Origin: Candidatus Mcinerneyibacteriota bacterium
Lineage (GTDB): Bacteria; AUK180; JAQVHJ01
DNA: 19,902 bases
Direction: 5' to 3'
Assembly (NCBI GenBank): GCA_030630935.1
Contig: DAOVMD010000007.1
Coordinates: 1 to 19,902, forward strand
The position numbers and the translations under genes are program-made. The notes under the pieces were generated by a model, which saw nothing but the letters and a program-made list of their open reading frames with translations, was not told the DNA's origin and made no database searches. Below, in pieces: positions 1 through 19,902 of the stretch; the first letter of the stretch is position 1; each line of letters starts with the position of its first letter.

Positions 1-633
1 AACAGAAAGAATAACTGGATGGATTGGAAAAACGAAGTAGTCATTATACCCGTTACAACAATGATCAAGAGGATAACCGGCAGTGATATTTTAAATGAGA
101 TTTCTTTCAAAGTGCACGAGGTTGAAGAACTTGAAGAAGGTATGGCTGAGGCAAAGGAAATTTTATTAGCAAACAGATATGACAATGAAGATTTCAGGAT
201 ACAATCAAGAAGTGAGAGGATGGAAGAATGGCGTAAGATGCGGGAGATGTGGAATTTTGTATTAGGAGCAATCGCTTCCATTTCGTTGCTTGTCGGTGGA
301 ATTGGTATAATGAATACACTTCTTGCTAATATTACTGAGAGGATTAGGGAGATTGGAATTAGAAAAGCAATCGGGGCAAAGAAAAGAGATATTCTATTTC
401 AGTTTCTAATAGAATCTATCGTTTTATCTACATTAGGAGGATTTCTCGGAATCTTTGTCGGGGTATATTTTTCAAATATAATTCAAAATTTCGCTGAAAT
501 GGATACTTCTATCTCAGCAAGAATTATTATCATCTCATTTTCATTCTCGGTTTTAGTAGGGATTGTTTTTGGAATTATGCCATCGGTTAAGGCAGCAAAG
601 CTGGACCCGATAGACTGTTTAAGGTATGAATAG
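1..633 (+). CDS. MacB/FtsX-family ABC transporter permease, C-terminal part (5' end outside window)
   Basis: The reading frame is open from the first base, so the gene starts upstream; the first ATG (19) is internal. About 210 residues are visible. They cover the end of the extracytoplasmic (MacB_PCD-like) domain, then the FtsX-like membrane domain with three hydrophobic segments (about codons 84-104, 138-160 and 175-198). The family signature is clear at about 296-400: GGIGIMNTLLANITERIREI followed by GIRKAIGA, the cytoplasmic coupling region that contacts the ATPase. The C-terminus (KAAKLDPIDCLRYE) matches the usual A..L.P...LR.E ending of MacB permeases. Such permeases work with a MacB-type ATPase and often a periplasmic adaptor to move lipids, peptides or envelope factors; the partners would lie upstream. 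The last 15 bases overlap the 3' end of the convergent GldG-like gene. Family assignment is firm; the substrate is unknown. Confidence 0.9.
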   Translation, partial: NRKNNWMDWKNEVVIIPVTTMIKRITGSDILNEISFKVHEVEELEEGMAEAKEILLANRYDNEDFRIQSRSERMEEWRKMREMWNFVLGAIASISLLVGGIGIMNTLLANITERIREIGIRKAIGAKKRDILFQFLIESIVLSTLGGFLGIFVGVYFSNIIQNFAEMDTSISARIIIISFSFSVLVGIVFGIMPSVKAAKLDPIDCLRYE

Positions 634-1872
634 TTTCTTTCTGAATCGAATCCTCACCAGAAAAATTAAAAAAGGCAATATCCCAAAAATTATATATAGC
701 ATTTTGAATTTATAGTTTTTTGTTGTGAACCAATACTGAGATATAATTAAATACTGAGCATGGAGTGAATGAATAGAAGCAGGTCTTTCATAAGTTGAAT
801 AACGAATTAAATTATATAAAAAATACCAGACTCGGATATTCTTCCTTGAATCCTTCAGGAAATCACAATCTCCAATCACAATTAATCTCCTTAATTTTAG
901 ATCATAATTCTCGATAATACGCCACTCGGATAACATTCCAAAAGTATAATACTGTTCCTCAATTCTACCTCTTAGAAGTGTGAATGTTTTAACATCTCTT
1001 AAGATATACCTTCCTTCCTTAACTACCTTAGGATCATAAAGAGTAATAGACTTAATCTCGCTATCTATAAACCAGTGAGACTCAACCATTACATCTAACT
1101 CATAATCATCATACGAAAAATCTTCAATGGTTAGATTAAATTTATCTAAAAGTATCTGTAAATTTTCCAATTCGTACGAATTCGTTTTTAAATTTTCAGG
1201 AGAGAACCTTTCTTTTAACGGTCTGCCTAATAAAATAATCACAGAATTCCCATTCTTCAGGAAGGGGAGCAGCTCATCTTTCTTAAGGTCTTCTGATAAC
1301 CCGGGAATAAGTAAAACCTGGTTTGTTAATTCTGCAGAATTTTCATTGAATTCAGTTAATGAATATCCATTCTCTCTAAGGAACTTTACAAACCCCTTTC
1401 TTTCTTTCTGCAGATCAAGTTCGTTATGCCCTGTTGAAAAGAAAATAGTCCGCAGTTCTTTTCTCAGGCACGTTTTTATCCCCCTTAAAATATCTACGAA
1501 GTCTACAAATATAAAATTATCATCTGTCTTGATCAAGGCTGAATCTAATTTATAAACACCGTATTTCTTGATCAACTGAGGATTTAAATCTGTTCTTATT
1601 ATATCGACTTTAATCTTATTGTTATACGAATGGAGGATTCTGAAAATATTTTCAAGTTTTCTTTGTAGAACTTTATCCTTTTCTATAAATGCAACTAAGT
1701 TTATTTCTTTATTAATACTCTTCAAGAACTCCTGGTCATCTATACTAATATGATAATCCATGTTTGGAATATAAATTGTGATATCAAAATATTTCTGAAT
1801 AAATAGATTCACTGAAATAACACAAATAATTAAAAAGGTAAAGATAACTATTTTCTTTAATATTTTTTCCAT
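619..1872 (-). CDS. GldG-like membrane-anchored ABC transporter auxiliary protein
   Basis: A 417-residue protein with an N-terminal signal anchor (about 7-25), a large extracytoplasmic region and a C-terminal membrane helix (about 391-410) followed by a basic tail. The middle has the features of GldG/ABC_transp_aux proteins: a segment ending in FVDILRG, then the FFSTGHNE motif (144-151; usual form T.GHGE), then a Rossmann-like stretch (LLIPGLSEDL, about 187-196) and FLKNGNSVIILLG. In the family this protein works with an ABC-2 permease and an ATPase (GldF and GldA in gliding Bacteroidetes), but homologues are widespread in bacteria that do not glide, so no motility role is claimed. It is the last gene of the minus-strand operon; its start overlaps the permease stop by 16 bases. 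It is shorter than many GldG proteins. The N of FFSTGHNE replaces the usual Gly. Confidence 0.78.
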   Translation of the reverse strand: MEKILKKIVIFTFLIICVISVNLFIQKYFDITIYIPNMDYHISIDDQEFLKSINKEINLVAFIEKDKVLQRKLENIFRILHSYNNKIKVDIIRTDLNPQLIKKYGVYKLDSALIKTDDNFIFVDFVDILRGIKTCLRKELRTIFFSTGHNELDLQKERKGFVKFLRENGYSLTEFNENSAELTNQVLLIPGLSEDLKKDELLPFLKNGNSVIILLGRPLKERFSPENLKTNSYELENLQILLDKFNLTIEDFSYDDYELDVMVESHWFIDSEIKSITLYDPKVVKEGRYILRDVKTFTLLRGRIEEQYYTFGMLSEWRIIENYDLKLRRLIVIGDCDFLKDSRKNIRVWYFLYNLIRYSTYERPASIHSLHAQYLIISQYWFTTKNYKFKMLYIIFGILPFLIFLVRIRFRKKLFIP

Positions 1873-2588
1873 TTTACAACCAGGTTCGCTCCAAAAATAA
1901 ACGTTATAATAAATGAACTAAAATAAATAATATCACTCAATGTAATTATTCCATATAGAAGATTCTGAACCCTGATATCGGGTAAGAGAAACTTTAAGAC
2001 TTCTGAGAATCCTGATTCCGGAAAGAATACCGGAAAAGTCTCCAGGAAGAAACACAATAAAAACATTCCTAATGTAATCCCTGCTGCTGATGCCGGGTAA
2101 TGATTAAAACTTGAAATAAAAACCCCCAAAGAAATATAGAATGATGAGATTAGAAAATACCCTAATAAAGCAATTAAATATAAGTCAAGTTGTACCGGTG
2201 TTTTCACAAAACCAAAAACCTTATATATCCACGGAAATATTAAAAAGAAAATTGTAAATACCAGGAATTGAGTTTGTATAAATTTGAACTTACCCAGGAC
2301 ATAATGAAATGGTTTCATTCCACTTGCCATAATTATCTCAAGTTCACCGGTTAATTTATCCTTTGCAATTGAGTTCATCGTAAATAAAGGTATAAATAAT
2401 ATTCCTAACCTTGTTAGTCCTTTAATAAAAACATAAGATTCAATCTTGCCATAGTAAAATGAAAAACTATTAAAAGTATACCCTGCAATCAATAAAAACA
2501 ATACTGAAATCGATTGAAGAAAGGTACTTTTCCTAAATAGTAAAAACTCTCTCTTAAAAATTGACATTACATCTCTAAACATTTTCAT
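1857..2588 (-). CDS. ABC-2 type permease, GldF-like
   Basis: A 243-residue integral membrane protein with about six hydrophobic segments (near 24-44, 58-72, 105-125, 134-158, 166-188 and 215-238). A short cytoplasmic motif, DKLTGELEIIMASGMKPFHY (77-96), followed by VLGKF, corresponds to the E...GT.E.L...P......GK element that couples ABC-2 permeases to their ATPase. The start ATG overlaps the stop of the upstream ATPase by 4 bases (ATGA), and the 3' end overlaps the GldG-like gene, so the three are very likely made together as one transporter. There is no Shine-Dalgarno sequence of note, consistent with translational coupling. The transported molecule cannot be read from the sequence. Confidence 0.82.
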   Translation of the reverse strand: MKMFRDVMSIFKREFLLFRKSTFLQSISVLFLLIAGYTFNSFSFYYGKIESYVFIKGLTRLGILFIPLFTMNSIAKDKLTGELEIIMASGMKPFHYVLGKFKFIQTQFLVFTIFFLIFPWIYKVFGFVKTPVQLDLYLIALLGYFLISSFYISLGVFISSFNHYPASAAGITLGMFLLCFFLETFPVFFPESGFSEVLKFLLPDIRVQNLLYGIITLSDIIYFSSFIITFIFGANLVVKWKKY

Positions 2589-3253
2589 TCAAATTTTTCA
2601 ATTGTATTTTTTATTGTTTTCAATTTATCCTCACCTTCAATCCATTCGACTTCTATTGCTTTCTTATTCCTCAGAATCAAGACCCTGTCACAGATTTTTG
2701 CAATTTCTTCGAGGTTATGTGAAGCTATCAGTAAAGTCTTTTCACCTTTCAAACTTAAAATTGATTCGATAAATTTCCCTTTATGATATTGGTCGATATT
2801 ACTGAAGGGTTCATCCAGGATAATAAAATCCGGGTTGTTTAAAAGGCACCTTGCAAGACTTACTCTTTGTAAAAAACCCTTTGATAATTCATTTAGTTTT
2901 TTCGTTACTTCACTTTTGAGTTCTAATAAATCAATGACTCGCTTTATGCTTTCTCTAATTATATCCTTTTTAACCTGATAAATTATGCAATATGAAAGGA
3001 GGTATTCAACTACTGTTAAATTAAGTTTTTTATTTGTATTCTCAGGTTGATAATTAATACGGATATCATCATCAAACCTGACCGTTCCATCATACCCGTC
3101 GATTAAACCAAGAACAATCCGAATAAGGGTTGTTTTCCCTGAACCATTCTCCCCTACTAATCCCATAAAATCATTTTGTTTAATCCGGAAATTTAAGTTC
3201 TCAAGAATTTCTGTTCTCTTAATTTTATATGTAAGGCTGGAAATATCAATCAT
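2585..3253 (-). CDS. ABC transporter ATP-binding protein (GldA/CcmA-like)
   Basis: A 222-residue nucleotide-binding domain with all core motifs: Walker A GENGSGKT (34-41), a Q-loop-like Q69, signature LSKGFLQR (123-130), Walker B FIILDEP (143-149) and the switch His in IASHN (H179). It is a stand-alone ATPase with no fused membrane region; two copies would pair with the adjacent ABC-2 permease. The signature reads LSKGF rather than LSGGQ, a common variation in the GldA/NatA/CcmA subfamily. The start ATG overlaps the end of the ATP-grasp gene by 8 bases, and the upstream sequence has no strong ribosome binding site, again pointing to coupling. Confidence 0.93.
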   Translation of the reverse strand: MIDISSLTYKIKRTEILENLNFRIKQNDFMGLVGENGSGKTTLIRIVLGLIDGYDGTVRFDDDIRINYQPENTNKKLNLTVVEYLLSYCIIYQVKKDIIRESIKRVIDLLELKSEVTKKLNELSKGFLQRVSLARCLLNNPDFIILDEPFSNIDQYHKGKFIESILSLKGEKTLLIASHNLEEIAKICDRVLILRNKKAIEVEWIEGEDKLKTIKNTIEKFE

Positions 3254-4136
3254 TTCGAAAGGTTTTTACCGATTTGTTTTTAAAACTTTTAAGAATAAAA
3301 TCTGCATAAACCTCAAGTGGATTAAATTTATATAATTCGATGTCGGTTTCCTGAAATCTTGAAGTTGCATCTATATCAATAAGATAATATTTACCTTCTG
3401 AGTCCTTTAAAATATCAACACTTCCTAATTGATTATTTGTTGCGGAAAATATTCTTACAGCAATGTCAAGAAGTTCAGGGGGATAGTCATTTAATATTTT
3501 AGCTTCTTCTCTTTTAGAAATCCTATCACAGGGAATCTGTAAAACAACCTTGAATTCACCGAAATTCTTAACACGGTAAATTACCCTATCCGGTGAATTA
3601 ATATAATTTTGAATAATAAAAAAATTATCATGTTGAAGTTTACTTAAATTCTCCGAGATAAATACTTCTCCTTCCTCTTTGCTATCTACAATTGCTGTTA
3701 GGAAATTTTTACCTGAACAATTTGGCTTAATAACAACAGGAAACTTCAGCTCGTCAAATGTTTTATTATCTTCATAAACTTTAAAATATGGAAATAATAT
3801 TTTAAACTTCATCAACTGTAAGAACGTTCGCAGCCTACTTATTTCAAAGAAGAAAGACTGAGAAGAATTTACAACTAAAAAACTAAGCTGATTAAAAACT
3901 TCGATTAAACTTGCCAGTTCCTTAATGACCATATAATGTTTTGAAACCAATTCATCGGTAAATATTCGATTAACTAAGACGTTTGAAATATGAAAAATAT
4001 CGTAGAATCTGACTTTTTTGTTTAGGATATCAACCAGTTGGCATTCTACTCCCCTTGACAGAAGAATCCTGAATAATTCAGAATTACTCCAGTCTTTCTC
4101 CCCTGTAATGATTGAAATAAAAGGTTTCTTGGGCAT
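3246..4136 (-). CDS. ATP-grasp family enzyme (RimK/YheC-like), substrate unknown
   Basis: A 296-residue protein. The N-terminal ~100 residues form an alpha/beta pre-ATP-grasp region (starts FISIITGEKD). The ATP-grasp core follows: lysine of FPVVIKPNCSG (K137), adenine-side strand FFIIQNYI (172-179), a YRV...FKVVLQIP strand (187-202), then GSVDIL (238-243) and the metal-binding strand YLIDIDATSRF (251-261). ATP-grasp enzymes of this shape ligate a carboxylate to an amine or thiol through an acyl-phosphate. The metal strand is usually E.N or D.N; here it is D254-I-D256, so the usual Asn is replaced by Asp while a related DVNATS-type pattern is recognisable. The start ATG directly follows the TAA of the cyclase gene. 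No precursor peptide gene is visible nearby. The family is fairly sure; product and substrate are unknown. Confidence 0.75.
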   Translation of the reverse strand: MPKKPFISIITGEKDWSNSELFRILLSRGVECQLVDILNKKVRFYDIFHISNVLVNRIFTDELVSKHYMVIKELASLIEVFNQLSFLVVNSSQSFFFEISRLRTFLQLMKFKILFPYFKVYEDNKTFDELKFPVVIKPNCSGKNFLTAIVDSKEEGEVFISENLSKLQHDNFFIIQNYINSPDRVIYRVKNFGEFKVVLQIPCDRISKREEAKILNDYPPELLDIAVRIFSATNNQLGSVDILKDSEGKYYLIDIDATSRFQETDIELYKFNPLEVYADFILKSFKNKSVKTFRND

Positions 4137-4733
4137 TTAATACTTTATTTTGAAATAGTTAACCTCGATACTGCTGATTGTTTTACGAATTTTCTTACTG
4201 AATTTATAACCCAAATATGTTTTTAGAAATTCATAAATCTGCTCTTCAATTAATATCTCACCGTCTTTTGCAAGGTCTTCTCCAAGCTTGGACGCAACAT
4301 TAACAGTATCTCCAAATACATCATTATTATAATTAAGGACTCTGCCTGAGGCAAGACCCATACAAAAACCAAATCGATTTTTTTTATTCGCATCTAAATT
4401 ATAAATCATAATTTTCTTTTGAATTTCAATAGCACAATTCGCAGCAGAACGCATATCTTTAAAAATTACTAATAGATTATCTGCTGAAGTCTTTAATAAA
4501 TGTCCATGGTTTTTCTTGATAATCGGGGCAGTCAGTTTTACCATTTTATCAAAAAGGTATAAGAAGTGAACAATCCCATAATTCTTTGTTTTCTGAGAGA
4601 AATTTGTTGAATCACAAACCATTACAACCTTGTTTACTCCAAACTTCTTCCAGATCTCTTCCTCAATAACGGTAAAGTTATCCTGTGATTCTTCTATTCT
4701 TTCTAAGTAAATATCCATTTTTTTCTTTGTCAT
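4137..4733 (-). CDS. Class III adenylate/guanylate cyclase-like protein, catalytic domain only
   Basis: A 198-residue protein consisting of a short N-terminal helix-rich lead (1-33) and one cyclase homology domain. Numbered from the start chosen here: first metal Asp in VVMVCDSTNF (D41), base-specifying Lys and second metal Asp in KTSADN (K81, D85), and the VFGDTVNVASKL segment holding D138 (adenine-selecting position), N145 and K149. The K81/D138 pair is the adenylate cyclase-type combination. The transition-state Arg expected at 149 is Lys, and the usual Gly before the metal Asp is Ala, so activity may be weak or lost. The start at 4733 is preferred over the upstream in-frame ATG at 4766, because that one lies between the -35 and -10 boxes of the promoter and would not be transcribed. 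It is the first gene of the operon. No membrane or sensor domain is present. Confidence 0.8.
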   Translation of the reverse strand: MTKKKMDIYLERIEESQDNFTVIEEEIWKKFGVNKVVMVCDSTNFSQKTKNYGIVHFLYLFDKMVKLTAPIIKKNHGHLLKTSADNLLVIFKDMRSAANCAIEIQKKIMIYNLDANKKNRFGFCMGLASGRVLNYNNDVFGDTVNVASKLGEDLAKDGEILIEEQIYEFLKTYLGYKFSKKIRKTISSIEVNYFKIKY

Positions 4734-4756
4734 AGGCCTACCTGTTTTAAAAATTG

Positions 4757-4785
4757 ATTTTATCATATAATATCATATTTGTCAA
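4757..4785 (-). promoter_or_regulatory. Sigma-70-type promoter of the cyclase/ATP-grasp/ABC operon
   Basis: On the minus strand: -35 TTGACA (4785-4780), a 17-base spacer, -10 TAAAAT (4762-4757). Transcription should start near 4750, giving a leader of about 17 bases with AGG just before the ATG at 4733. The match is one base away from consensus, which makes this one of the strongest promoter calls in the window. It decides the start of the cyclase gene. Confidence 0.75.
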
Positions 4786-9832: not shown

Positions 9833-11050
9833 CTACTTATGCTTACCACCGTTAGTATCCTTGTCTTTGCTCTTGTTCTTACTTCCATTTTTCTTATCTG
9901 AACCGGAACTTTTCTTTCCTTTACTATCTCCATTTCCACTCTTGGTGTTACCATTAAATACATTTGAAAATATTGAAATAAAGGTTGAACTTTTCTTTGT
10001 CGATTGCGGTTTATTATATTCCTTCTTTGAATTATTGTCCGGTGGTGCTTTCTTATTAGATGGTGGATTTTTCTTAGAAGGCGGAGTATTGTAACGTGAG
10101 TTGGGTTGCTTCGGCGGCTTATTATAATTCTTGTCTGAACCTGAATTCTTTGGACCTGAATTCTTTGAATTTGGAGGTCTTTTATAATTAGTCGGCCGAT
10201 CATTCTTCTGAGACGGTTTTGTGTTTCTATACTTATTCTTATCACTACGATACAATTCATCCTTAGGTCCGCTATGCTTATTTAACTTAAAATTCTTCGG
10301 ATTCTTTCCGGTCTTTTTTATCCAGTTCCTTTCAAAATCCTTCTGCCTCTTAGTATAATTCTGCTTAAAACTCTTTTCATTTGCTCCATACTTCTTATAT
10401 TCAGCAGTCGGCTTAAGATTAGGTGGAGACTTGGTCCATTTATCCGGACGGAAATCTCCTTTAACAGGTGCCCCGGATTTGTACTTGCTGTTGCCAGGTT
10501 TTACAAATTTATATTTACCTGAGCTAAAAGAACGCTTATCAACTGCTACCCAACCTTTTGATTTGTACTTAGGATATTTATGTTTATATGCAGGATTCTT
10601 GTACTTCGGGTAATTATAGTAATAAGGTCTATTCCCAGGACCTAAAGGAACCCACGCAACATAATTACGATGATGATACCAAGCAACATAACCAGGTCCC
10701 CAAACTCGACCCGGAACCCAGAGCCAACCATAGTACGGAGAAAAACTCCATCTCCCATAATGATAGGTTACCCAACCCCAGGGTTCATCAGAGACCCAAA
10801 CCCAACCATGGTGATAGTCCCAAACCCAACGGCCATAATAATAAGGCTGCCAACCAACCCAGGTATGCGGTACCCAAACTTCGCCATGACCTGATACCCA
10901 AACCCAGCGGCCATAAGAATCCCAATATGGTGAACCTGTTCTATAAACTACGCCTACTGAAACTGAAGCCTTAGCTTCACGAACTGTTATAAAAAATAAC
11001 GCGAGTAAGATGAATAACACCAAACCTACTTTAAAAAGTTGCTTTTTCAT
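9833..11050 (-). CDS. Secreted tryptophan/tyrosine-rich protein with DUF6600-like domain and disordered basic tail
   Basis: A 405-residue exported protein. Residues 1-28 are a classic signal peptide (basic start, VGLVLFILLALFF core, cleavage after AKA). Residues 35-138 are an aromatic domain with recurring GRWVW / GWVWV / HYGRW / GWLWVPG elements, ending VAWVPLGP, which fits the DUF6600 / YXWGXW type seen in periplasmic or surface proteins. Residues ~145-405 are low complexity, rich in Lys, Asn, Pro, Ser and Gly, probably disordered and highly basic. The ribosome binding site is strong (AAAGGAGG just before ATG). A possible weak promoter is TTGTAC-17-TAAGAT (11144-11116, minus strand). Function is unknown; binding to cell wall or polyanions is plausible but unproven. 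It is a single-gene unit facing the lepB operon. Confidence 0.85.
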   Translation of the reverse strand: MKKQLFKVGLVLFILLALFFITVREAKASVSVGVVYRTGSPYWDSYGRWVWVSGHGEVWVPHTWVGWQPYYYGRWVWDYHHGWVWVSDEPWGWVTYHYGRWSFSPYYGWLWVPGRVWGPGYVAWYHHRNYVAWVPLGPGNRPYYYNYPKYKNPAYKHKYPKYKSKGWVAVDKRSFSSGKYKFVKPGNSKYKSGAPVKGDFRPDKWTKSPPNLKPTAEYKKYGANEKSFKQNYTKRQKDFERNWIKKTGKNPKNFKLNKHSGPKDELYRSDKNKYRNTKPSQKNDRPTNYKRPPNSKNSGPKNSGSDKNYNKPPKQPNSRYNTPPSKKNPPSNKKAPPDNNSKKEYNKPQSTKKSSTFISIFSNVFNGNTKSGNGDSKGKKSSGSDKKNGSKNKSKDKDTNGGKHK

Positions 11051-11985: not shown

Positions 11986-12014
11986 TTGACATTTCACAGA
12001 AATTTTGATAAAAT
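11986..12014 (+). promoter_or_regulatory. Sigma-70-type promoter of the seven-gene operon
   Basis: TTGACA (11986-11991), a 17-base spacer, TAAAAT (12009-12014): the same boxes and spacing as the promoter of the minus-strand cyclase operon. Transcription should begin near 12021, leaving an AT-rich leader of about 105 bases. The leader holds an extra AGGAG (12083-12087) with no start codon behind it. No further convincing promoter is seen before 17819, so this one probably serves all seven genes. Confidence 0.72.
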
Positions 12015-12127: not shown

Positions 12128-12694
12128 TTGCGAGTTAAAGGCACGGTATTTAAATCTACTATTAAGTTTATCAAGAAGCATTGGGGTGAGACCGGATTTC
12201 AGAAGATATTATCCAATCTAACAGATGAAGAGAGTACTTTATTATCATTAACTGTTTCGAATGCATTATGGTATCCTTTTGAAGTCTATATGAATTTTAG
12301 TATGGCCATATTAAAGGAATTTGGTTCAGGAGATTTGAGTTTACTCCGGAGGATTGGTGGATATTCAGCCTTGGAGGGCTTAAAAACGGGTTATAAAATA
12401 CTATTCCGAATGGGCAGTCCGTTTTTCATTGCAAAGATTGCCCAGAAAGCATACTCAATGTATTTTGATGTTGGGAAATTAGAATTAATAGAAGAAAATC
12501 ACGATGAGAAATATGTGATTTTAAAACTTTCAGAGATTTCAGAGATCCATGATTTTCATTTAGAGCGTATTTCCGGCTGGATTGAGCAGACTTTTGTAAT
12601 GACCGGAGGTCGTAATCCCAATGTAGAAATTATCAAGAAGAATAATGAAGGAGAGAATTTTGTATTATTTAAAGGTACTTGGAAAGATGATTAA
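12128..12694 (+). CDS. DUF2378/V4R-like protein, paralog 1 of 3
   Basis: A 188-residue soluble protein starting with TTG. The start is supported by AAAGGA (12115-12120, 7-base spacing), a stop codon just upstream in frame, and alignment with its two paralogs (M-basic-V/I-K-G). Shared landmarks along the three: GTVFKSTIKFIKKHWGETG near the N-terminus, ALWYP (WYP invariant), GSGDLSLLRRIGGYSA (G.GDL...R..G), a KIL/KIF...SP/SI.F segment, YFDVGKLELIE (Y.x.G) and RISGWIE....TGG near the C-terminus. The overall pattern resembles DUF2378 (TIGR02265) proteins and, more loosely, the V4R/heme-NO-binding fold, a small-ligand-binding shape; this match is from memory and tentative. It is the most diverged of the three and heads the operon. 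Confidence 0.8.
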   Translation: MRVKGTVFKSTIKFIKKHWGETGFQKILSNLTDEESTLLSLTVSNALWYPFEVYMNFSMAILKEFGSGDLSLLRRIGGYSALEGLKTGYKILFRMGSPFFIAKIAQKAYSMYFDVGKLELIEENHDEKYVILKLSEISEIHDFHLERISGWIEQTFVMTGGRNPNVEIIKKNNEGENFVLFKGTWKDD

Positions 12695-12723
12695 ATTAAA
12701 ATTAATAATAAATGGAGAAAAAG

Positions 12724-13278
12724 ATGAAGATTAAAGGCTCAGCAATAATTTCCTCAATTGATTATATAAAGATTCATTTTGGTGAAGAAGGGAAGAAAGA
12801 GGTTTTTGCACGCCTTCCTGAAGAAGAGCAGAAGATTGTTAATCAGCCTGTATTATCATCGATGTGGTATCCCCTTTCTATTTTTATTAATTTAAATCAG
12901 TTTACTGATTCAATTTTTGGAAAGGGTGACCTTGAATTAGTCAGGATAATGGGTGCTTTTGGTGCTGAGCATGATCTTAAAACTATCTATAAGATTTTTT
13001 ATAAAATTGGTTCAATTCAATTTATATTGAAACGTGCATCACAGGTATTTTCAACATATTATAATCAAGGCCAGATGCAGGTGTTAGAATCATCATCCGA
13101 TTGGGGAATAATTGAATTATCAGATTTTCCTGATATTACTGAGGTTTATCTTCAGCGTGTTTCAGGTTGGATGGAGAAGACCATTGAACTCAGTGGAGGG
13201 CAATATCCAAAGGTTGTAACAATAAGAAAATTAAAAGATGGTAAATCTGTTGTAGAGTTCAAAGCAACCTGGACATGA
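12724..13278 (+). CDS. DUF2378/V4R-like protein, paralog 2 of 3
   Basis: A 184-residue protein. The ATG at 12724 is preferred over the one at 12712: TGGAG lies 6 bases before it, and it aligns exactly with the first residues of the paralogs (MKIKGSAIIS versus MKVKGSAIIS in copy 3). It carries the common landmarks: SMWYP, GKGDLELVRIMGAFGA, TIYKIFYKIGS, SRASQVF-like KRASQVFSTYY and RVSGWMEKTIELSGG. It is clearly closer to copy 3 than to copy 1, suggesting that 2 and 3 arose from the later duplication. It begins 29 bases after copy 1. No signal peptide, membrane helix or cysteine cluster is present. Function unknown; a ligand-binding or sensory role would fit the suspected fold. Confidence 0.8.
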   Translation: MKIKGSAIISSIDYIKIHFGEEGKKEVFARLPEEEQKIVNQPVLSSMWYPLSIFINLNQFTDSIFGKGDLELVRIMGAFGAEHDLKTIYKIFYKIGSIQFILKRASQVFSTYYNQGQMQVLESSSDWGIIELSDFPDITEVYLQRVSGWMEKTIELSGGQYPKVVTIRKLKDGKSVVEFKATWT

Positions 13279-13315
13279 TTTTCATGTTTCAAAATTTTAA
13301 TTTTAGGAGTCCAAA

Positions 13316-13870
13316 GTGAAAGTAAAGGGTTCAGCAATAATTTCAACACTTGATTTTGTAGACATTAACTATGGTAAGGAAGGGATAAAAAGAATTTTAC
13401 ATGTTCTTGATGAAACCGATAGGAAAGTTCTAAATGAAACACTTTTTGCAACTTTTTGGTATCCTTTAAGAACATTAATAAATCTCAGTCGAGCCGTTGA
13501 CAATGAATTCGGAATAGGTGATCTAAGTTTTATCCGCAGATTAGGTAGTTTTAGTGCTTCTCATGATTTAAGGACAATTTATAGGATATTTTATAAAATT
13601 GGTTCCCCGCAATTTGTTATCAGCCGAGCTTCTCAAGTATTTGCAACTTATTATGATGCCGGGAATTTAGAAGTAATTGATTCAGGGAAGAGTTTTGTAG
13701 TTATTGAGTTGACTGATTTCCCGGAAGTTGATGAAGTCTTGATTCAGCGAATATCAGGTTGGATAGAAAAGACTCTTACATTAAGTGGAGGGAAAGACGT
13801 AAAAACTGTTGCGGCGATTAAAGAGAGAGCAGGTAAGGAATATGTTGAGTTCAACACTAAATGGGATTAA
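13316..13870 (+). CDS. DUF2378/V4R-like protein, paralog 3 of 3
   Basis: A 184-residue protein starting with GTG, with AGGAG 6 bases upstream. It shares with copy 2 the N-terminus KGSAIIST/SID, WYPL, GIGDLSFIRRLGSFSA, TIYRIFYKIGSPQFV, SRASQVFATYYDAG and QRISGWIEKTLTLSGG. It lies 37 bases after copy 2, and its stop overlaps the start of the first membrane protein gene (the ATG at 13861) by 10 bases, which ties the paralogs to the membrane genes. The three genes use three different start codons (TTG, ATG, GTG) with similar ribosome binding sites, which may tune relative amounts. Confidence 0.8.
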   Translation: MKVKGSAIISTLDFVDINYGKEGIKRILHVLDETDRKVLNETLFATFWYPLRTLINLSRAVDNEFGIGDLSFIRRLGSFSASHDLRTIYRIFYKIGSPQFVISRASQVFATYYDAGNLEVIDSGKSFVVIELTDFPEVDEVLIQRISGWIEKTLTLSGGKDVKTVAAIKERAGKEYVEFNTKWD

Positions 13871-15063
13871 GTTTGAAGCCTTCCAAATTAACATCTCTTC
13901 CCGAAAATGAAAGAATGAGTTCTCTCCCCCTCTATAGAATTCGGGGAGTTTTAATTATTTTTTATTTATTTATACTAATAATTCCGGTTTTTGGGAAGCA
14001 ATTTAATTTTAAAGCATTTGATACACCAAATGATTCCGGCAATTCAATTTCCATTTACTTAACAGTAACAGATAACTTTTCAACAGGGCGATATGTAATT
14101 TATCGAATTGATGAAGATAATAATGAATTTGAAGTAGTAAATTTTGAATTGTCAGATTCCAAAATCCTGGAATTTAGTTTTATAGATTCAAATGTGAAAG
14201 ATGGGGTGGGATATAGATACCAGCTTTATTATACAAAAAAGAATCTTAGCAGTTATTTCATTTTATCAGAAACCAGCTTTATTTATTCCTCACCACAATG
14301 GTATCATAAGAAGAAGACCCCGGTTCTAATAGGGATTTTGATTTATGTTTTAGTTTTATTTTTATCAATTCTTCTTGCCAAGCGGGGTGGAATAAAATAT
14401 ATCCGGAAATTACCTGGTCTTGATGCGATTGAAGATGCGGTTGGCCGTGCGACAGAGATGGGTAAGCCGGTACTTTATTTAACCGGTCTGGAAAGGATAA
14501 GTAATATTGCAACGATTGCTTCACTCGATATTCTTGCACGAGTTTCAAAAAAAGTTGCGGAGTATGAGACGCCATTATTAATTCCGTGTTTTGATCCGAT
14601 TGTTTTAATAATTGCGCGGGAGATCGTTCGTGAATCTTATAGTTTTACCGGGAAACCGGATATTTATAACGAAGATAATATTTATTATATTACAGGTAAC
14701 CCGTTTGGTTATGTTGCTGCAGTTGACGGGATTATGATGAGGGAGAAACCTGCTGCGAATTTTTATTTAGGTGCATTTTATTCAGACTCGTTAATTCTTG
14801 CGGAGACCGGTGCTGCCACAGGGGCAATACAGATTGCGGGAACCGATTCTCCAATTCAACTGCCTTTTTTTATTGCAGCGTGTGATTATACTCTTCTTGG
14901 TGAAGAATTATATGCCGCAAGTGCATATTTATCACGAAAGAAAGAGTTATTAGGAACCCTGAAAACTCTTGATATTATGAAGATTTTAATTATGATATTT
15001 ATTTTACTCGGTTCAATTTTAATTACATTTGAAATTGATATAACCGGTTTTTTAATTCGGTAA
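13861..15063 (+). CDS. Membrane protein with fibronectin III-like and DUF6754-like domains
   Basis: A 400-residue protein. A signal anchor at about 29-45 is followed by a beta-rich domain (50-145, with GRYVIYRIDEDNNEFEVV and DGVGYRYQLYY, fibronectin type III-like), a membrane helix (154-173), a large alpha/beta domain (about 185-360) and a C-terminal helix (372-390). The alpha/beta domain contains LPGLDAIEDAVGRATEMGKP, YLTGLERISNIATIASLDIL, YITGNPFGYVAAVDGIM, LGAFYSDSLILAETGAATGA and FFIAACDYTLLGEELYAASA. I associate this pattern with DUF6754 proteins of uncultured bacteria; their function is unknown. The true start could be the ATG at 13915, as the first 18 residues are polar and neither start has a strong ribosome binding site. 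It overlaps paralog 3, which argues for a linked role. Confidence 0.78.
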   Translation: MGLSLKPSKLTSLPENERMSSLPLYRIRGVLIIFYLFILIIPVFGKQFNFKAFDTPNDSGNSISIYLTVTDNFSTGRYVIYRIDEDNNEFEVVNFELSDSKILEFSFIDSNVKDGVGYRYQLYYTKKNLSSYFILSETSFIYSSPQWYHKKKTPVLIGILIYVLVLFLSILLAKRGGIKYIRKLPGLDAIEDAVGRATEMGKPVLYLTGLERISNIATIASLDILARVSKKVAEYETPLLIPCFDPIVLIIAREIVRESYSFTGKPDIYNEDNIYYITGNPFGYVAAVDGIMMREKPAANFYLGAFYSDSLILAETGAATGAIQIAGTDSPIQLPFFIAACDYTLLGEELYAASAYLSRKKELLGTLKTLDIMKILIMIFILLGSILITFEIDITGFLIR

Positions 15064-15072
15064 ATAGAAAAT

Positions 15073-15699
15073 ATGAAAAAAAGAATTCCACTCTTTATTG
15101 TATTTTTAGTTGGGATGTTAATGATCATTCAATTCTTTATCCCGCACCGGTTATCGGTTACTTTCTATACAGGGTTTTTGAATTGGTTTACTGCAATGGT
15201 CCTGTTTGCATTGATAATTGGAATCGGGACCCTGCTGAACAGACATTTTAAAAAGATTAAAAGGAAAGATGACGATTGGGGCTTTTCAATAGTGACGATT
15301 ACCGGTTTTTTCGGAATGTTATTAATTGGTATTTTTGGAGGGATTGGAGAGGGGACATTATTTATGAAATTATTTGAATTTGTTCTCACTCCACTTCAAG
15401 CAACGATGTTTGCGTTATTAGCTTTTTTTATTGCCAGTGCCGCATTCAGGGCATTTCGAGCAAGGACTTTTGAAGCTAGTTTATTATTAATTGCAGCCTT
15501 AATTGTAATGTTAGGCAGAGTTCCAATCGGGGATAAATTGACATTTGGTTTTGCTTCTACTTTAACAGAATGGATATTCCGAATCCCTAATATGGCTGCC
15601 AAACGCGGGATTCAAATGGGTATTGCACTTGGGATGATTGCAACTTCTTTAAAGATAATCTTTGGGATCGAAAGATCATGGCTGGGTTCGGATGACTAA
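15073..15699 (+). CDS. Six-helix membrane protein of unknown function (operon member)
   Basis: A 208-residue integral membrane protein with hydrophobic segments near 5-23, 36-54, 70-91, 105-126, 133-147 and 180-198. A short basic loop lies between segments 2 and 3 (NRHFKKIKRKDDDWG). Notable stretches are GFFGMLLIGIFGGIGEGTLF, ASAAFRAFRARTFEA and RIPNMAAKRGIQMGIALG. There is no transporter or enzyme motif I recognise. It begins 9 bases after the preceding gene and its stop overlaps the next one, so it is part of the same translational chain. The FRAFRARTFEA loop resembles a cytoplasmic interaction loop, but this is only impression. Confidence 0.75.
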   Translation: MKKRIPLFIVFLVGMLMIIQFFIPHRLSVTFYTGFLNWFTAMVLFALIIGIGTLLNRHFKKIKRKDDDWGFSIVTITGFFGMLLIGIFGGIGEGTLFMKLFEFVLTPLQATMFALLAFFIASAAFRAFRARTFEASLLLIAALIVMLGRVPIGDKLTFGFASTLTEWIFRIPNMAAKRGIQMGIALGMIATSLKIIFGIERSWLGSDD

Positions 15700-16543
15700 A
15701 ATGGATATTATAAAAAAGATTTTACACCTTGACAGAAGAATTATTTTCCTAACGTTATTTATAGTGCTGTTAATTACACCTTTTATTCACCTGGAGATGA
15801 AGATAAATATTACAAACCCAACACGGAGAATTTTTAATGATGTTGAAGAGATGAGTGAAGGTGATCCAATAATCGTGAGTATGAGTTATGCACCATTCGC
15901 AAAGCCCGAATTATATCCAATGACCCTGGCATTTTTAAGACATTGCTGTATGAAGAAATTACGAATTATTTTTGTTGCAACTAATGAAGCCGGAATGAGT
16001 ATTGCTATTCAGGCAATGGAAGAGATTAAAATGGAATTTGAATATGAGCATGGTAAGGATTATGTTCTTTTGGCTTTTAATCCTGTACTTTCAGCTGTAA
16101 TGCTCGGGATGGGCGAGAGCATTACGGATATTTTTCCAGAGGATTATTATGGTAATAAAACAAAAGGTCTTAAGGTGCTTAAGGATGTAAATGATTATAG
16201 GGATATTAAGTTGTTAATGGATTTCTCCGCAGGCGATAGCCCTGTCTGGTGGGTTGTTTATGCCAACACCAGGTATAACCAAAGGATCGGGACAGGTGTG
16301 ACCGCAGTCATGGCTGCTGATTTCTATCCGTACTTGAATACAGGACAAATGATTGGACTTATTAATGGCTTGAAAGGTGCTGCAGAGTATGAAACTCTAA
16401 TAAATCACACGGCAGAAGCAACGGAAAAAATGACGTCACAAGCAATTGCTCATATCGTCATTATTCTCTTTATTCTAATTGGAAATATTGCTTATTTTAT
16501 TGATAAACGAAATAAAAGGAAAGAAAGACATGGAACTGCTTAG
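15692..16543 (+). CDS. Membrane-anchored alpha/beta protein of unknown function (operon member)
   Basis: A 283-residue protein with an N-terminal helix (about 18-34), a soluble alpha/beta domain (about 55-240) and a C-terminal helix (about 253-272). The domain begins DPIIVSMSYAPFAKPELYPM and has alternating strands and helices (RIIFVATNEAGMSIA, DYVLLAFNPVLSAVMLGMG, LLMDFSAGDSPVWWVVYANT) and ends RIGTGVTAVMAADFYPYLNT-GQMIGLINGLKGAAEYE. The topology is the same as for the domain of the 13861 gene product, and the GT...AAD-aromatic ending is similar, so the two may be distant homologues. The start at 15692 overlaps the upstream stop; an ATG at 15701 with GGATG 6 bases before it is an alternative. 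The longer TTG start (15662) is unlikely. No catalytic motif is recognised. Confidence 0.75.
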   Translation: MTKMDIIKKILHLDRRIIFLTLFIVLLITPFIHLEMKINITNPTRRIFNDVEEMSEGDPIIVSMSYAPFAKPELYPMTLAFLRHCCMKKLRIIFVATNEAGMSIAIQAMEEIKMEFEYEHGKDYVLLAFNPVLSAVMLGMGESITDIFPEDYYGNKTKGLKVLKDVNDYRDIKLLMDFSAGDSPVWWVVYANTRYNQRIGTGVTAVMAADFYPYLNTGQMIGLINGLKGAAEYETLINHTAEATEKMTSQAIAHIVIILFILIGNIAYFIDKRNKRKERHGTA

Positions 16544-17153
16544 TAATATTTTAAATCCATGGAATCTACTTGCAGCATTTTTAACGTTTGCAATATTCTC
16601 ATTCCTTTATAAGGATAATCCATTTTATAAATTTGCGGAGCATCTGTTTGTCGGAGTCTCGCTGGGGTATTCAACTTGTATAATAATTTTTAATGCTTTC
16701 ATTCCAAAAGTTGTTAACCCAATATTTACTGACTTCTCGCATAATTGGCACCTGGTAATTGCAGTACTATTAGGTATGATGTATTTCTTCAGATTCAGCT
16801 CAAAATATCGATGGCTGATAAGGTTCCCAATGGCAATTCAAATCGGATTTACCGCAGGGATTTCTGTTACCTTAAGAATGGATGCGAGATTATTTAAACA
16901 ATTAAAATTTACAGTGATGCCATTAGATAATATCTATACTATTATTGTGATTGTCGGTGTCATCTCAGTGTTAATTTATTTCCTGTTTACTTTTAAGAGA
17001 AAAGGAATCCTGAACCCGTTAGCAAAACTCGGAACAATTTTCCTAATGGTCGGATTCGGAGCAACATTCGGGAATACGGTCATGGCAAGAATTTCCCTCC
17101 TGATCGGAAGAATATCTTTCCTTCTTAAGGACTGGCTACATATCCTGGAGTGA
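16530..17153 (+). CDS. Multi-helix membrane protein of unknown function (last operon member)
   Basis: A 207-residue integral membrane protein with about six hydrophobic segments (near 12-27, 38-57, 72-87, 97-112, 133-152 and 166-182). Conspicuous stretches are NPFYKFAEHLFVGVSLGYST (28-47), FFRFSSKYRWLIRFPMAIQI, and the C-terminal GFGATFGNTVMARISLLIGR. The start at 16530 is chosen because AAAGGA lies 9 bases upstream; a longer in-frame ATG at 16479 lies deep in the previous gene and has no such site. It overlaps the preceding gene by 14 bases. A perfect hairpin follows the stop. I do not recognise the family; it is probably a subunit of a membrane complex with the three preceding gene products. 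Confidence 0.75.
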   Translation: MELLSNILNPWNLLAAFLTFAIFSFLYKDNPFYKFAEHLFVGVSLGYSTCIIIFNAFIPKVVNPIFTDFSHNWHLVIAVLLGMMYFFRFSSKYRWLIRFPMAIQIGFTAGISVTLRMDARLFKQLKFTVMPLDNIYTIIVIVGVISVLIYFLFTFKRKGILNPLAKLGTIFLMVGFGATFGNTVMARISLLIGRISFLLKDWLHILE

Positions 17154-17155
17154 AA

Positions 17156-17184
17156 AACTATTTTTCGGTAACCGAAAAATAGTT
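17156..17184. terminator. Perfect inverted repeat after the seven-gene operon (probable transcript end)
   Basis: AACTATTTTTCGGT (17156-17169) and ACCGAAAAATAGTT (17171-17184) are exact complements, giving a 14-bp stem (11-12 bp once a real loop is allowed). It starts 2 bases after the TGA. The following bases (AAATTG) are not a T-run, so it may stabilise the 3' end or block RNA decay rather than act as a canonical terminator. Confidence 0.5.
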
Positions 17185-17187
17185 AAA

Positions 17188-17337
17188 TTGTTCAAGAGTT
17201 AAACGAGTTAAAATGTAAAAGATGCTACGATAGTTCAATTGTTCAAGAGTTAACGAGGCATGCTTTGCATGCGTTCAAAAGTTCAAGAGTTAAAGTGTTT
17301 AAGAGTTCAATTGTTCAAATGTTAAATATGTTAAAGA
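17188..17337 (+). repeat. Irregular tandem repeat tract, TTCAAGAGTTAAA units
   Basis: At least five imperfect units built on GTTCAAGAGTTAA, GTTTAAGAGTTC and GTTCAAATGTTAA occur with variable spacing. The units drift in length and sequence, unlike the constant repeats and unique equal-length spacers of CRISPR. The tract is non-coding in all frames for any useful length. Confidence 0.65.
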
Positions 17338-17886: not shown

Positions 17887-19902
17887 ATGATTTATTCAAT
17901 TGATGTTGGCAGTACAACAACTAAGCTTATTAAGTTTAAGACTAAGGGTACGAATTTAATAGGCATCGAATTTGAGGAGAGACATCCTACAACAGTTGAA
18001 TCACCTTATAATGATGTTGGAGTTGCGATCGAGAATTTATTTAAGAAATGTAACCTTTTAATTAAACAGGAAGATACATATATAACAAGTTCCGCTGGTG
18101 GTGGTTTAAAGATTCTGGTTGTTGCTTTAACTTCAATAATCTCAGGGTTTTCCGCAGTACGTGCAGCTGAAGTTTCAGGTGGGATCATCCTGGAAAATAT
18201 TACGATTGATCATCCTGTTAATAAAGTTGAGAAGATTCGCAAGATAATAGAATCTTCTCCTGATATGATCCTTTTTCTCGGTGGTTTGGAAAAGGGCGAA
18301 GTTGCAAAGCTTGTTGAATTATTTTACATTTTAAGTTATTCAAAACCAAAAAATTATCTTACGGGCGAAAAGATCCCTTTGATTTATGCCGGCAACTCGA
18401 GAGCGGTTCCCCATTTAAAAGAAATCCTTTCAGAGCATTATGAAATTTATATTGAAGAGAATGTTCGACCTTCTTTACTTCAGGAAAATGTTGAAGAAGT
18501 AAAAGAATTGATCCAAAAACTTTTTACAAAACATGTTATGAAGATTGCTCCCGGTTTTAAGGGGATCTTTAAATATACGGCAAATGATATTTCCCCGACA
18601 CCCTTAGCTGTTGAGGCATTCCTCCAGAAATATTACCTTGAACATCAGAAGAATATTCTTGCGATTGACATTGGCGGCGCAACAACAGATATCTTTTCAA
18701 TTTTTGAAGAGAAGACCAATCGAACGGTTGTTGCTCAATTTGGTTTGAGTTATAATATAAATAATATTGTAAAGGAAGAAGATTCGGAATTTGTAAATAA
18801 CTTTTTTGAATCTGGAGTTGATTATAATAATTTCCTGAATTATATTGGGAATAAAAATGTTAACCCGACCTATAACCCGAAATCCCGTGAAGAGATCCAA
18901 TTTGAAATGATAATTGCATCTTTAATTATAAAAAAATCAATTGCTCTTCATTTTTCGAAGTATTTCAAACCTATTTATAAGGCAATTACTATAGATGGTT
19001 ACCGTGAAGTAGATGTACTGCACCAGCTTCAAACATTTAATAAGAAAGATAGTGAAACTATTTTATTATCGGGTGGAATATTTACAGTTTTAAGTCCTGA
19101 TGATACGTTAAAAGTGATTGATACAGCATTTGATAAGGAGAGCGAGATTGCTATTTATAAAGATGATTTTTTTATACTTCCAAATTTAGGAAATATATTG
19201 AAGAATTCTAATTACAATATTGATCAGGTTGTTGAAAAGAATATTACATTTTGCGGACATACAACTCAGGAGATAAAAACGTTAAAGACAAAGTTTTTGG
19301 AATTTGGTAATTTGTTAAAGTTCAATAAAGAAAAAAGCAATGTTGAAACGGAACTTAAGGTAAGAGTCCTGGAATTTTCGAAAGTCAATATTCTCTTAGA
19401 GTATACATTATCAAAATTAATATTTTATCCTTATATTAGAGAGATTGAAGCAGGTAAAAAGTTGAGTCAGGAAACAATAATTGCTTCTTGCCCTGAAGTA
19501 ATTAATGAGTTTGTTACAAAGGCAATTTATGTAAGATCGGATGAGGAAATTGAATATTTAAAGGAGGAGCACGAGGAATTTAGACAAGGGGAATTCATCT
19601 ATAAAAAAACCAGTACTGATGCATTTAATTTTAGAAAACCCTCTAGATTTTCATTCAATTATTCCGGCAAAATTCTCCGGATTGATCCTGTAAATAATAT
19701 TGTAATTTTTATAAAAGAAACAGAGAGACCTGATGATCTCAATCCCGTTTTGAAATCCATGGTAACAGGTGAAGTTACAGGTATTTTAAATAATGAAATT
19801 AAAATTTTAATATCTGGTGAAATAATCCTTGGAAAGATCGGTTTTGGAAGGGAAGTATTGGGAAAACTAAATGTCTTTTTACAGGGAGAGATGTCCCAGT
19901 AT
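17887..19902 (+). CDS. MutL/GlmL-like ASKHA-fold protein (glutamate mutase L family), 3' end outside window
   Basis: The frame is open from the ATG at 17887 to the last base: 672 codons with no stop. Two ATP-binding phosphate motifs of the ASKHA (actin/Hsp70/sugar kinase) fold are present: IDVGSTTTK (5-13) and LAIDIGGATTDIFS (258-271). Other MutL/GlmL landmarks are SSAGGGLKI (68-76), DMILFLGGLEKGE (126-138), PLIYAGNSRAV (164-174), PTPLAVEAFLQ (237-247) and ILLSGGIF (392-399). In glutamate mutase operons this protein is thought to act as a chaperone or reactivase for the B12 enzyme, but no mutase gene is in the window and the protein is common in bacteria without one. The region after ~575 is a beta-rich extension (GKILRIDPVNN, MVTGEVTGIL, GKIGFGREVLGKL), beyond the usual ~460-600 residues. 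It has its own promoter. Confidence 0.85.
   Translation, partial: MIYSIDVGSTTTKLIKFKTKGTNLIGIEFEERHPTTVESPYNDVGVAIENLFKKCNLLIKQEDTYITSSAGGGLKILVVALTSIISGFSAVRAAEVSGGIILENITIDHPVNKVEKIRKIIESSPDMILFLGGLEKGEVAKLVELFYILSYSKPKNYLTGEKIPLIYAGNSRAVPHLKEILSEHYEIYIEENVRPSLLQENVEEVKELIQKLFTKHVMKIAPGFKGIFKYTANDISPTPLAVEAFLQKYYLEHQKNILAIDIGGATTDIFSIFEEKTNRTVVAQFGLSYNINNIVKEEDSEFVNNFFESGVDYNNFLNYIGNKNVNPTYNPKSREEIQFEMIIASLIIKKSIALHFSKYFKPIYKAITIDGYREVDVLHQLQTFNKKDSETILLSGGIFTVLSPDDTLKVIDTAFDKESEIAIYKDDFFILPNLGNILKNSNYNIDQVVEKNITFCGHTTQEIKTLKTKFLEFGNLLKFNKEKSNVETELKVRVLEFSKVNILLEYTLSKLIFYPYIREIEAGKKLSQETIIASCPEVINEFVTKAIYVRSDEEIEYLKEEHEEFRQGEFIYKKTSTDAFNFRKPSRFSFNYSGKILRIDPVNNIVIFIKETERPDDLNPVLKSMVTGEVTGILNNEIKILISGEIILGKIGFGREVLGKLNVFLQGEMSQY

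Follow-up and report, generated by a model that had tools for sequence, protein, structure and literature searches.

The 19,902-bp stretch of DNA analysed here (the window) lies on contig C404 of a 471-contig Candidatus Mcinerneyibacteriota genome with an estimated completeness of 80%. It contains four consecutive genes for membrane proteins, here called A, B, C and D, and, farther 3', the gene for a MutL/GlmL-type ATPase, M. We found that A-B-C-D is a conserved gene unit that is accompanied in most carriers by M and by a partner protein, K. It is very probable that A to D, M and K, joined in many genomes by the small proteins N and T, are components of one system with the part list T-N-M-K-A-B-C-D. 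The part list, the gene order and the co-occurrence are direct observations. The genes of this system in the window are as follows.

13861-15063, plus strand: A, with a signal/transmembrane (TM) helix, an outside fibronectin type III (FnIII) domain, a TM helix, a cytoplasmic Rossmann-like DUF6754 domain and a last TM helix
15073-15699, plus strand: B, a six-TM protein with both termini inside and a conserved cytoplasmic loop (SAAFRAFRAR)
15692-16543, plus strand: C, ATG start, with an extracytoplasmic Rossmann-like domain between two TM helices
16530-17153, plus strand: D, ATG start, a six-TM protein with a conserved loop (DNPFYKFAE)
17887-19902, plus strand: M, a divergent MutL/GlmL-type ASKHA ATPase whose C-terminal part aligns with K; the gene is cut by the contig end

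Gene order and co-occurrence of the parts

We surveyed 88 loci using profiles made from the proteins of the window and of WOR-3. About 90 copies of A had a readable context, and 79 of these are followed on the same strand by B-C-D. This order holds for 42 of 50 copies in the genomes taken domain-wide, for 24 of 27 in the named Planctomycetota, WOR-3, Neomarinimicrobiota and related loci, and for all 13 in the window's phylum. Such an order in dozens of unrelated genomes is more than chance. An earlier note, made from the letters of this stretch, had regarded the four membrane genes as a set of unknown function and proposed a survey of whether they travel together; they do, and they form a conserved unit to which no function is assigned. 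Tandem ABCD-ABCD copies are common among the surveyed loci. In one locus (L125, on contig C38 of genome G126), four C-type genes surround a single A-B-D set, as would result from repeated duplication of C, and another locus (L020, 9295-12377) has a divergent additional A-B-C-D set, in which many conserved residues of A and C are lost.

The operon in the earlier note ended with D, and the real genomic partners M and K were overlooked. Outside the window's phylum, 34 of 36 M genes are directly followed by K, and K is located immediately 5' of A in 35 loci. Furthermore, N (about 110 residues) adjoins the cluster in 26 loci, mostly immediately 5' of M, and T, a two-TM protein, occurs in 20 loci, often one gene farther out. 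Other neighbours, namely the fatty-acid synthesis genes located 3' in Phycisphaerae and the genes for LplA, BirA-like and GcvP proteins, were discarded as clues, since they are lineage-specific.

Co-occurrence was analysed in 290 genomes spread across the bacterial domain. DUF6754, the domain of A, was detected in 81 of them, about a quarter, and in none of 14 well-known control genomes. The C profile also matched 81 genomes, of which 79 were common to A and the two extra ones (G099 and G237) gave weak matches. The M family (PF13941) was above the cut-off in 86 genomes, comprising 76 of the 81 DUF6754-positive and 10 of the 209 other genomes (Fisher p = 5e-52, computed without phylogenetic correction). 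Strong K matches were obtained in 75 genomes, every one of which is DUF6754-positive. The number of A copies per genome ranges from one to seven; in 38 genomes, which together have 108 A copies, there is one stand-alone K each. Because K is usually single and A is not, one soluble M-K pair may serve several membrane modules. Omp85 was tried as a clue to an outer membrane and rejected: it is present in 79 of the 81 carriers, and since it is also present in nearly all sampled genomes (272 of 290), it is uninformative on outer-membrane linkage.

Predicted folds and topology of the proteins

Residues 145-394 of A correspond to Pfam DUF6754 (PF20539; 1.2e-109, 365.8 bits with a gathering cut-off of 27). 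In the AlphaFold model of A (mean predicted local distance difference test score, pLDDT, 77.6), a signal/TM helix precedes the FnIII sandwich, and a second TM helix connects this to a Rossmann-like alpha/beta domain, which is followed by the last TM helix; the FnIII domain was recovered both by profile (titin, 4e-13) and by fold search (Z of about 10). The model of C (pLDDT 88.5) has a Rossmann-like domain flanked by two TM helices; its best fold match is 1kjn (Z 9.8, root mean square deviation (rmsd) 3.2 over 138 residues), followed by TrkA/RCK-type and many other Rossmann domains. The description in the earlier note of A as a protein with FnIII-like and alpha/beta domains, and of C as an anchored alpha/beta protein, was thus borne out. 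According to family-wide positive-inside charge counts, the alpha/beta domain of A is predicted to be cytoplasmic and that of C to be outside. Although both are Rossmann-like in the models, profile comparison of A with C revealed no homology, and neither did that of B with D.

B and D are each predicted to have six TM helices. Their identities across phyla are 41-53% and 37-48%, respectively, and the conserved positions include the cytoplasmic loop between TM4 and TM5 of B and the loop between TM1 and TM2 of D. A Pfam search with B and D gave no significant match, and sequence searches of the PDB with B, C, D and the small proteins S described below gave none at all. Fold searches with the models of A and C yielded no PilN/PilO-like or transporter match above the common Rossmann background, and the PADLOC defence-system models had no match at E 0.01 for A to D, M, K or S1.

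The M protein of the window matches the whole domain of about 450 residues of PF13941 (residues 4-451; 4.3e-70, 237.1 bits with a gathering cut-off of 27). M is about 600 residues long, or about 860-1030 if fused to K, and its nucleotide motifs (D-GSTTTK, DIGGATTD and SGG) were aligned in all 10 sequences compared, including the window copy. M stays below the cut-off of the NCBIfam GlmL equivalog (475 bits), with 229 bits (8e-68) for the protein of locus L018 and 154 bits for that of the window, and also misses a second NCBIfam cut-off (169 versus 204 bits). K, with about 374 residues, shows 43-90% identity to the reference across phyla and about 100 invariant columns. It has a barrel-sandwich-like region with weak RnfC_N and Biotin_lipoyl matches, and in our reading its C-terminus may be KOW-like, with an SPT5 match at E 0.55. 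Searches of the PDB with K and M gave weak partial matches at most.

The locus in the window and its flanks

In the window, the C-terminal part of M aligns with the K part of a fused MutL-K protein (locus L042). Relatives that are 861-862 residues long and bear the same extension occur in three further genomes from this phylum. In a sister genus (genome G006, locus L074), D is followed by a 124-residue protein with four TM helices and then by this form of M; the D-M linkage is therefore seen twice in the family. The B-C-D genes of the window are an early-branching paralog (support 0.96) of the module that, in this phylum, usually precedes genes for an extracytoplasmic function (ECF) sigma factor, a zf-HC2 anti-sigma-like protein and a bactofilin-like protein. 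In the second module of the same genome (L046, 61-8016), A is 1160 residues long, including an extended extracytoplasmic part, and is followed by B-C-D and the same three kinds of gene.

Upstream of A are three small paralogs, S1 to S3, and the locus is bordered by two candidate signals.

12128-12694, plus strand: S1, TTG start, an HNOB/V4R-like small soluble protein, accessory and outside the conserved set
12712-13278, plus strand: S2, an accessory paralog of S1 with 37% identity to it
13316-13870, plus strand: S3, GTG start, an accessory paralog of S1 with 36% identity to it and a 10-bp overlap with A
11986-12014, plus strand: promoter-like pair, TTGACA-17-TAAAAT, 11/12 match, with TG
17156-17184, plus strand: perfect 14-bp inverted repeat (hairpin) just 3' of D, without a T-run, fold z = -5.4

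All seven open reading frames of the earlier note, S1 to D, and their three overlaps (13861/13870, 15692/15699 and 16530/16543) are exact; the other adjacent genes are 17, 37 and 9 bp apart. The promoter proposed there exists as a -35/-10 pair. Because a scan found 38 pairs of this type with about 31 expected in shuffled sequences, it is a plausible promoter and lacks statistical significance. The hairpin without a T-run is terminator-like at most. Of the 733 bp between D and M, roughly 700 bp are AT-rich and contain 24-nt repeats; at 17179-17325, an AT-rich direct repeat of 24 nt (ATAGTTAAATTGTTCAAGAGTTAA) occurs in five imperfect copies.

The similarity of the S proteins to V4R and DUF2378 suggested in the earlier note is weak. 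One S homologue matches V4R at 2.6e-5 and others match DUF2378 at 0.06-0.3; the best scores are 24.7 bits (cut-off 31) and 13.6 bits (cut-off 22.2), respectively, and all are below threshold. S1 itself has a sub-threshold match to HNOB (1.4e-4, 22.3 bits, gathering cut-off 25.5), and S2 and S3 have no Pfam match, HNOB, V4R and DUF2378 included. The S family is lineage-expanded: it has nine matches in the genome of the window and was found in 24 of the 290 genomes, comprising every genome of the phylum (7 of 7) and 17 genomes outside it. The spacing of S1 to S3 and A makes co-expression with ABCD likely.

On the minus strand, the window also contains an ABC-2 transporter set with ABC_transp_aux (GldG-like), ATP-grasp-like and class III nucleotide cyclase-like proteins (619-4766), and a DUF6600 protein with a long low-complexity tail rich in Lys, Asn, Pro and Ser (9833-11050).

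Possible function and comparison with known systems

One possible explanation of these observations is that the four proteins A to D together make up one inner-membrane module belonging to a widespread bacterial envelope machine. M would bind and hydrolyse ATP in the cytoplasm and, via K, would dock on the cytoplasmic face of the module, that is, on A at its Rossmann-like domain and on B and D at their conserved loops. Changes driven by the nucleotide would then gate or energise the membrane core of B and D, and the FnIII domain of A and the Rossmann-like domain of C would touch a ligand or partner outside. A single M-K pair would serve several ABCD modules. We prefer transport or gating as the output over a role in scaffolding or assembly, since two subunits are polytopic and the copy numbers are one-to-many; this mechanism is our best guess, tentatively held. 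It is possible, with slightly less confidence, that the system represents a new class of envelope machine, in which a MutL-type ASKHA ATPase and the adaptor K drive one or several four-subunit complexes that have a Rossmann-like domain on either side of the membrane, for energised transport or gating unrelated to ABC, ECF and P-type systems and secretion ATPases.

Several points weigh against this mechanism. That A to D form one complex, and that M-K docks on it, is inferred. In the window's phylum, stand-alone M-K pairs are not adjacent to ABCD, and five A-positive genomes (G013, G064, G083, G223 and G260) have no detected M, one of which (G013) has K. Conserved charged residues inside the helices of B or D are few, so an ion path is not favoured. 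The matches to Rossmann-like folds are generic (Z 9.4 for A with the RCK domain of MthK, Z 9.8 for C with 1kjn), and since such folds are common, the function of A and C is not deducible from them.

An alternative possibility, which we consider unlikely, is that the system serves the envelope as a structural or assembly scaffold, with a logic comparable to that of PilM-PilN-PilO-PilP; M would be the nucleotide-dependent scaffold, and surface components would be positioned or assembled by A and C. The occurrence of an ASKHA protein alongside membrane proteins with extracytoplasmic domains, the variable extracytoplasmic part of A (from almost none up to about 900 residues across the loci), and the sigma, anti-sigma-like and bactofilin-like genes after the sister module of the window's phylum are consistent with such a role. 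However, Rossmann-like domains in A and C do not speak for a scaffold, two six-TM subunits exceed its needs, and among neighbours that were annotated or recurrent no pilus genes were seen, the majority of neighbours being without annotation. It is still less probable that M is simply a GlmL-type protein that reactivates a B12-dependent mutase, its link to ABCD being incidental or via B12 supply. Indeed, M is homologous to GlmL, and a methylmalonyl-CoA (MM-CoA) mutase family protein is present in 33 of 50 carrier genomes; but it is missing from the other 17, and the glutamate mutase E subunit (PF06368) was above the cut-off in none of the 50, so that a link of M to glutamate mutase was rejected. 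Both absences disfavour this explanation. Furthermore, the short, high-scoring GlmL-type protein is found in several genomes without DUF6754 (G056, G084, G112, G201 and G226), whereas the long form accompanies DUF6754.

The earlier note had taken S1 to S3 to be cytoplasmic sensors or adaptors of the membrane complex. V4R and HNOB are domains that bind ligands, and the tight spacing and the 10-bp overlap of S3 with A suggest co-translation. Nevertheless, S adjoins ABCD in the window alone among the 88 loci, the family is spread over its genome, and outside the phylum DUF6754 occurs in only 2 of the 17 S-positive genomes. Given this distribution, we reject S as a co-evolving part of the ABCD system, and dedicated V4R/HNOB-like sensors of ABCD are improbable; in this genome, S1 to S3 may be co-expressed passengers or regulators. 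Thus, the interpretation in the earlier note is partly supported, in that the ABCD unit stands and the role of S in the complex is not supported.

We know of no system with the part combination M-K-A-B-C-D. Its novelty would rest on composition and distribution. A literature search found no paper naming DUF6754 and nothing relevant for PF13941, PF20539 or the GlmL family, and the only paper obtained for DUF2378 was unrelated; subscription papers were mostly outside the search, and an earlier description is possible. In their main text, essential-gene papers on Planctopirus and Verrucomicrobium do not name these genes. Thus, for a conserved membrane system that 81 of 290 genomes possess, often in multiple copies, we could find no published function. 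Our results unite DUF6754 with several membrane proteins that lack names, and with a protein whose glutamate-mutase name is misleading, in one testable system, and suggest that mutase-related names on the long MutL form are wrong. Since Planctomycetota are among the carriers, and this phylum offers a culturable model as well as transposon data at genome scale (PMC10632474), essentiality look-up and deletions should be possible.

As for known families, A is a member of DUF6754, to which Pfam assigns no function, and we did not find B, C, D or K described alongside it. The S paralogs, outside the conserved system, resemble HNOB, V4R and DUF2378 below all curated cut-offs. M shares the whole domain and the nucleotide motifs with the GlmL/MutL accessory ATPases (PF13941, NF040745 and TIGR01319), but it is longer, scores below the NCBIfam cut-offs and occurs without glutamate mutase. 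The matches to RCK and TrkA domains (A to MthK RCK, rmsd 2.6 over 113 residues; C to TrkA, Z 8.7, rmsd 4.1 over 139 residues) concern a very common fold; no sequence similarity was found for A and C, and the domain of C is outside the cytoplasm. PilM is a cytoplasmic ASKHA protein that acts with membrane proteins bearing periplasmic domains, and M with ABCD has a similar arrangement. However, no sequence link to PilM-PilN-PilO-PilP was seen (the fold search covered the models of A and C), and ABCD has two six-TM subunits and Rossmann-like domains. Compared with energy-coupling factor (ECF) transporters, there is no ABC ATPase among the core parts and no sequence link was seen, but, judging from the copy numbers, the working logic may be alike, with several membrane modules drawing on one common energising unit.

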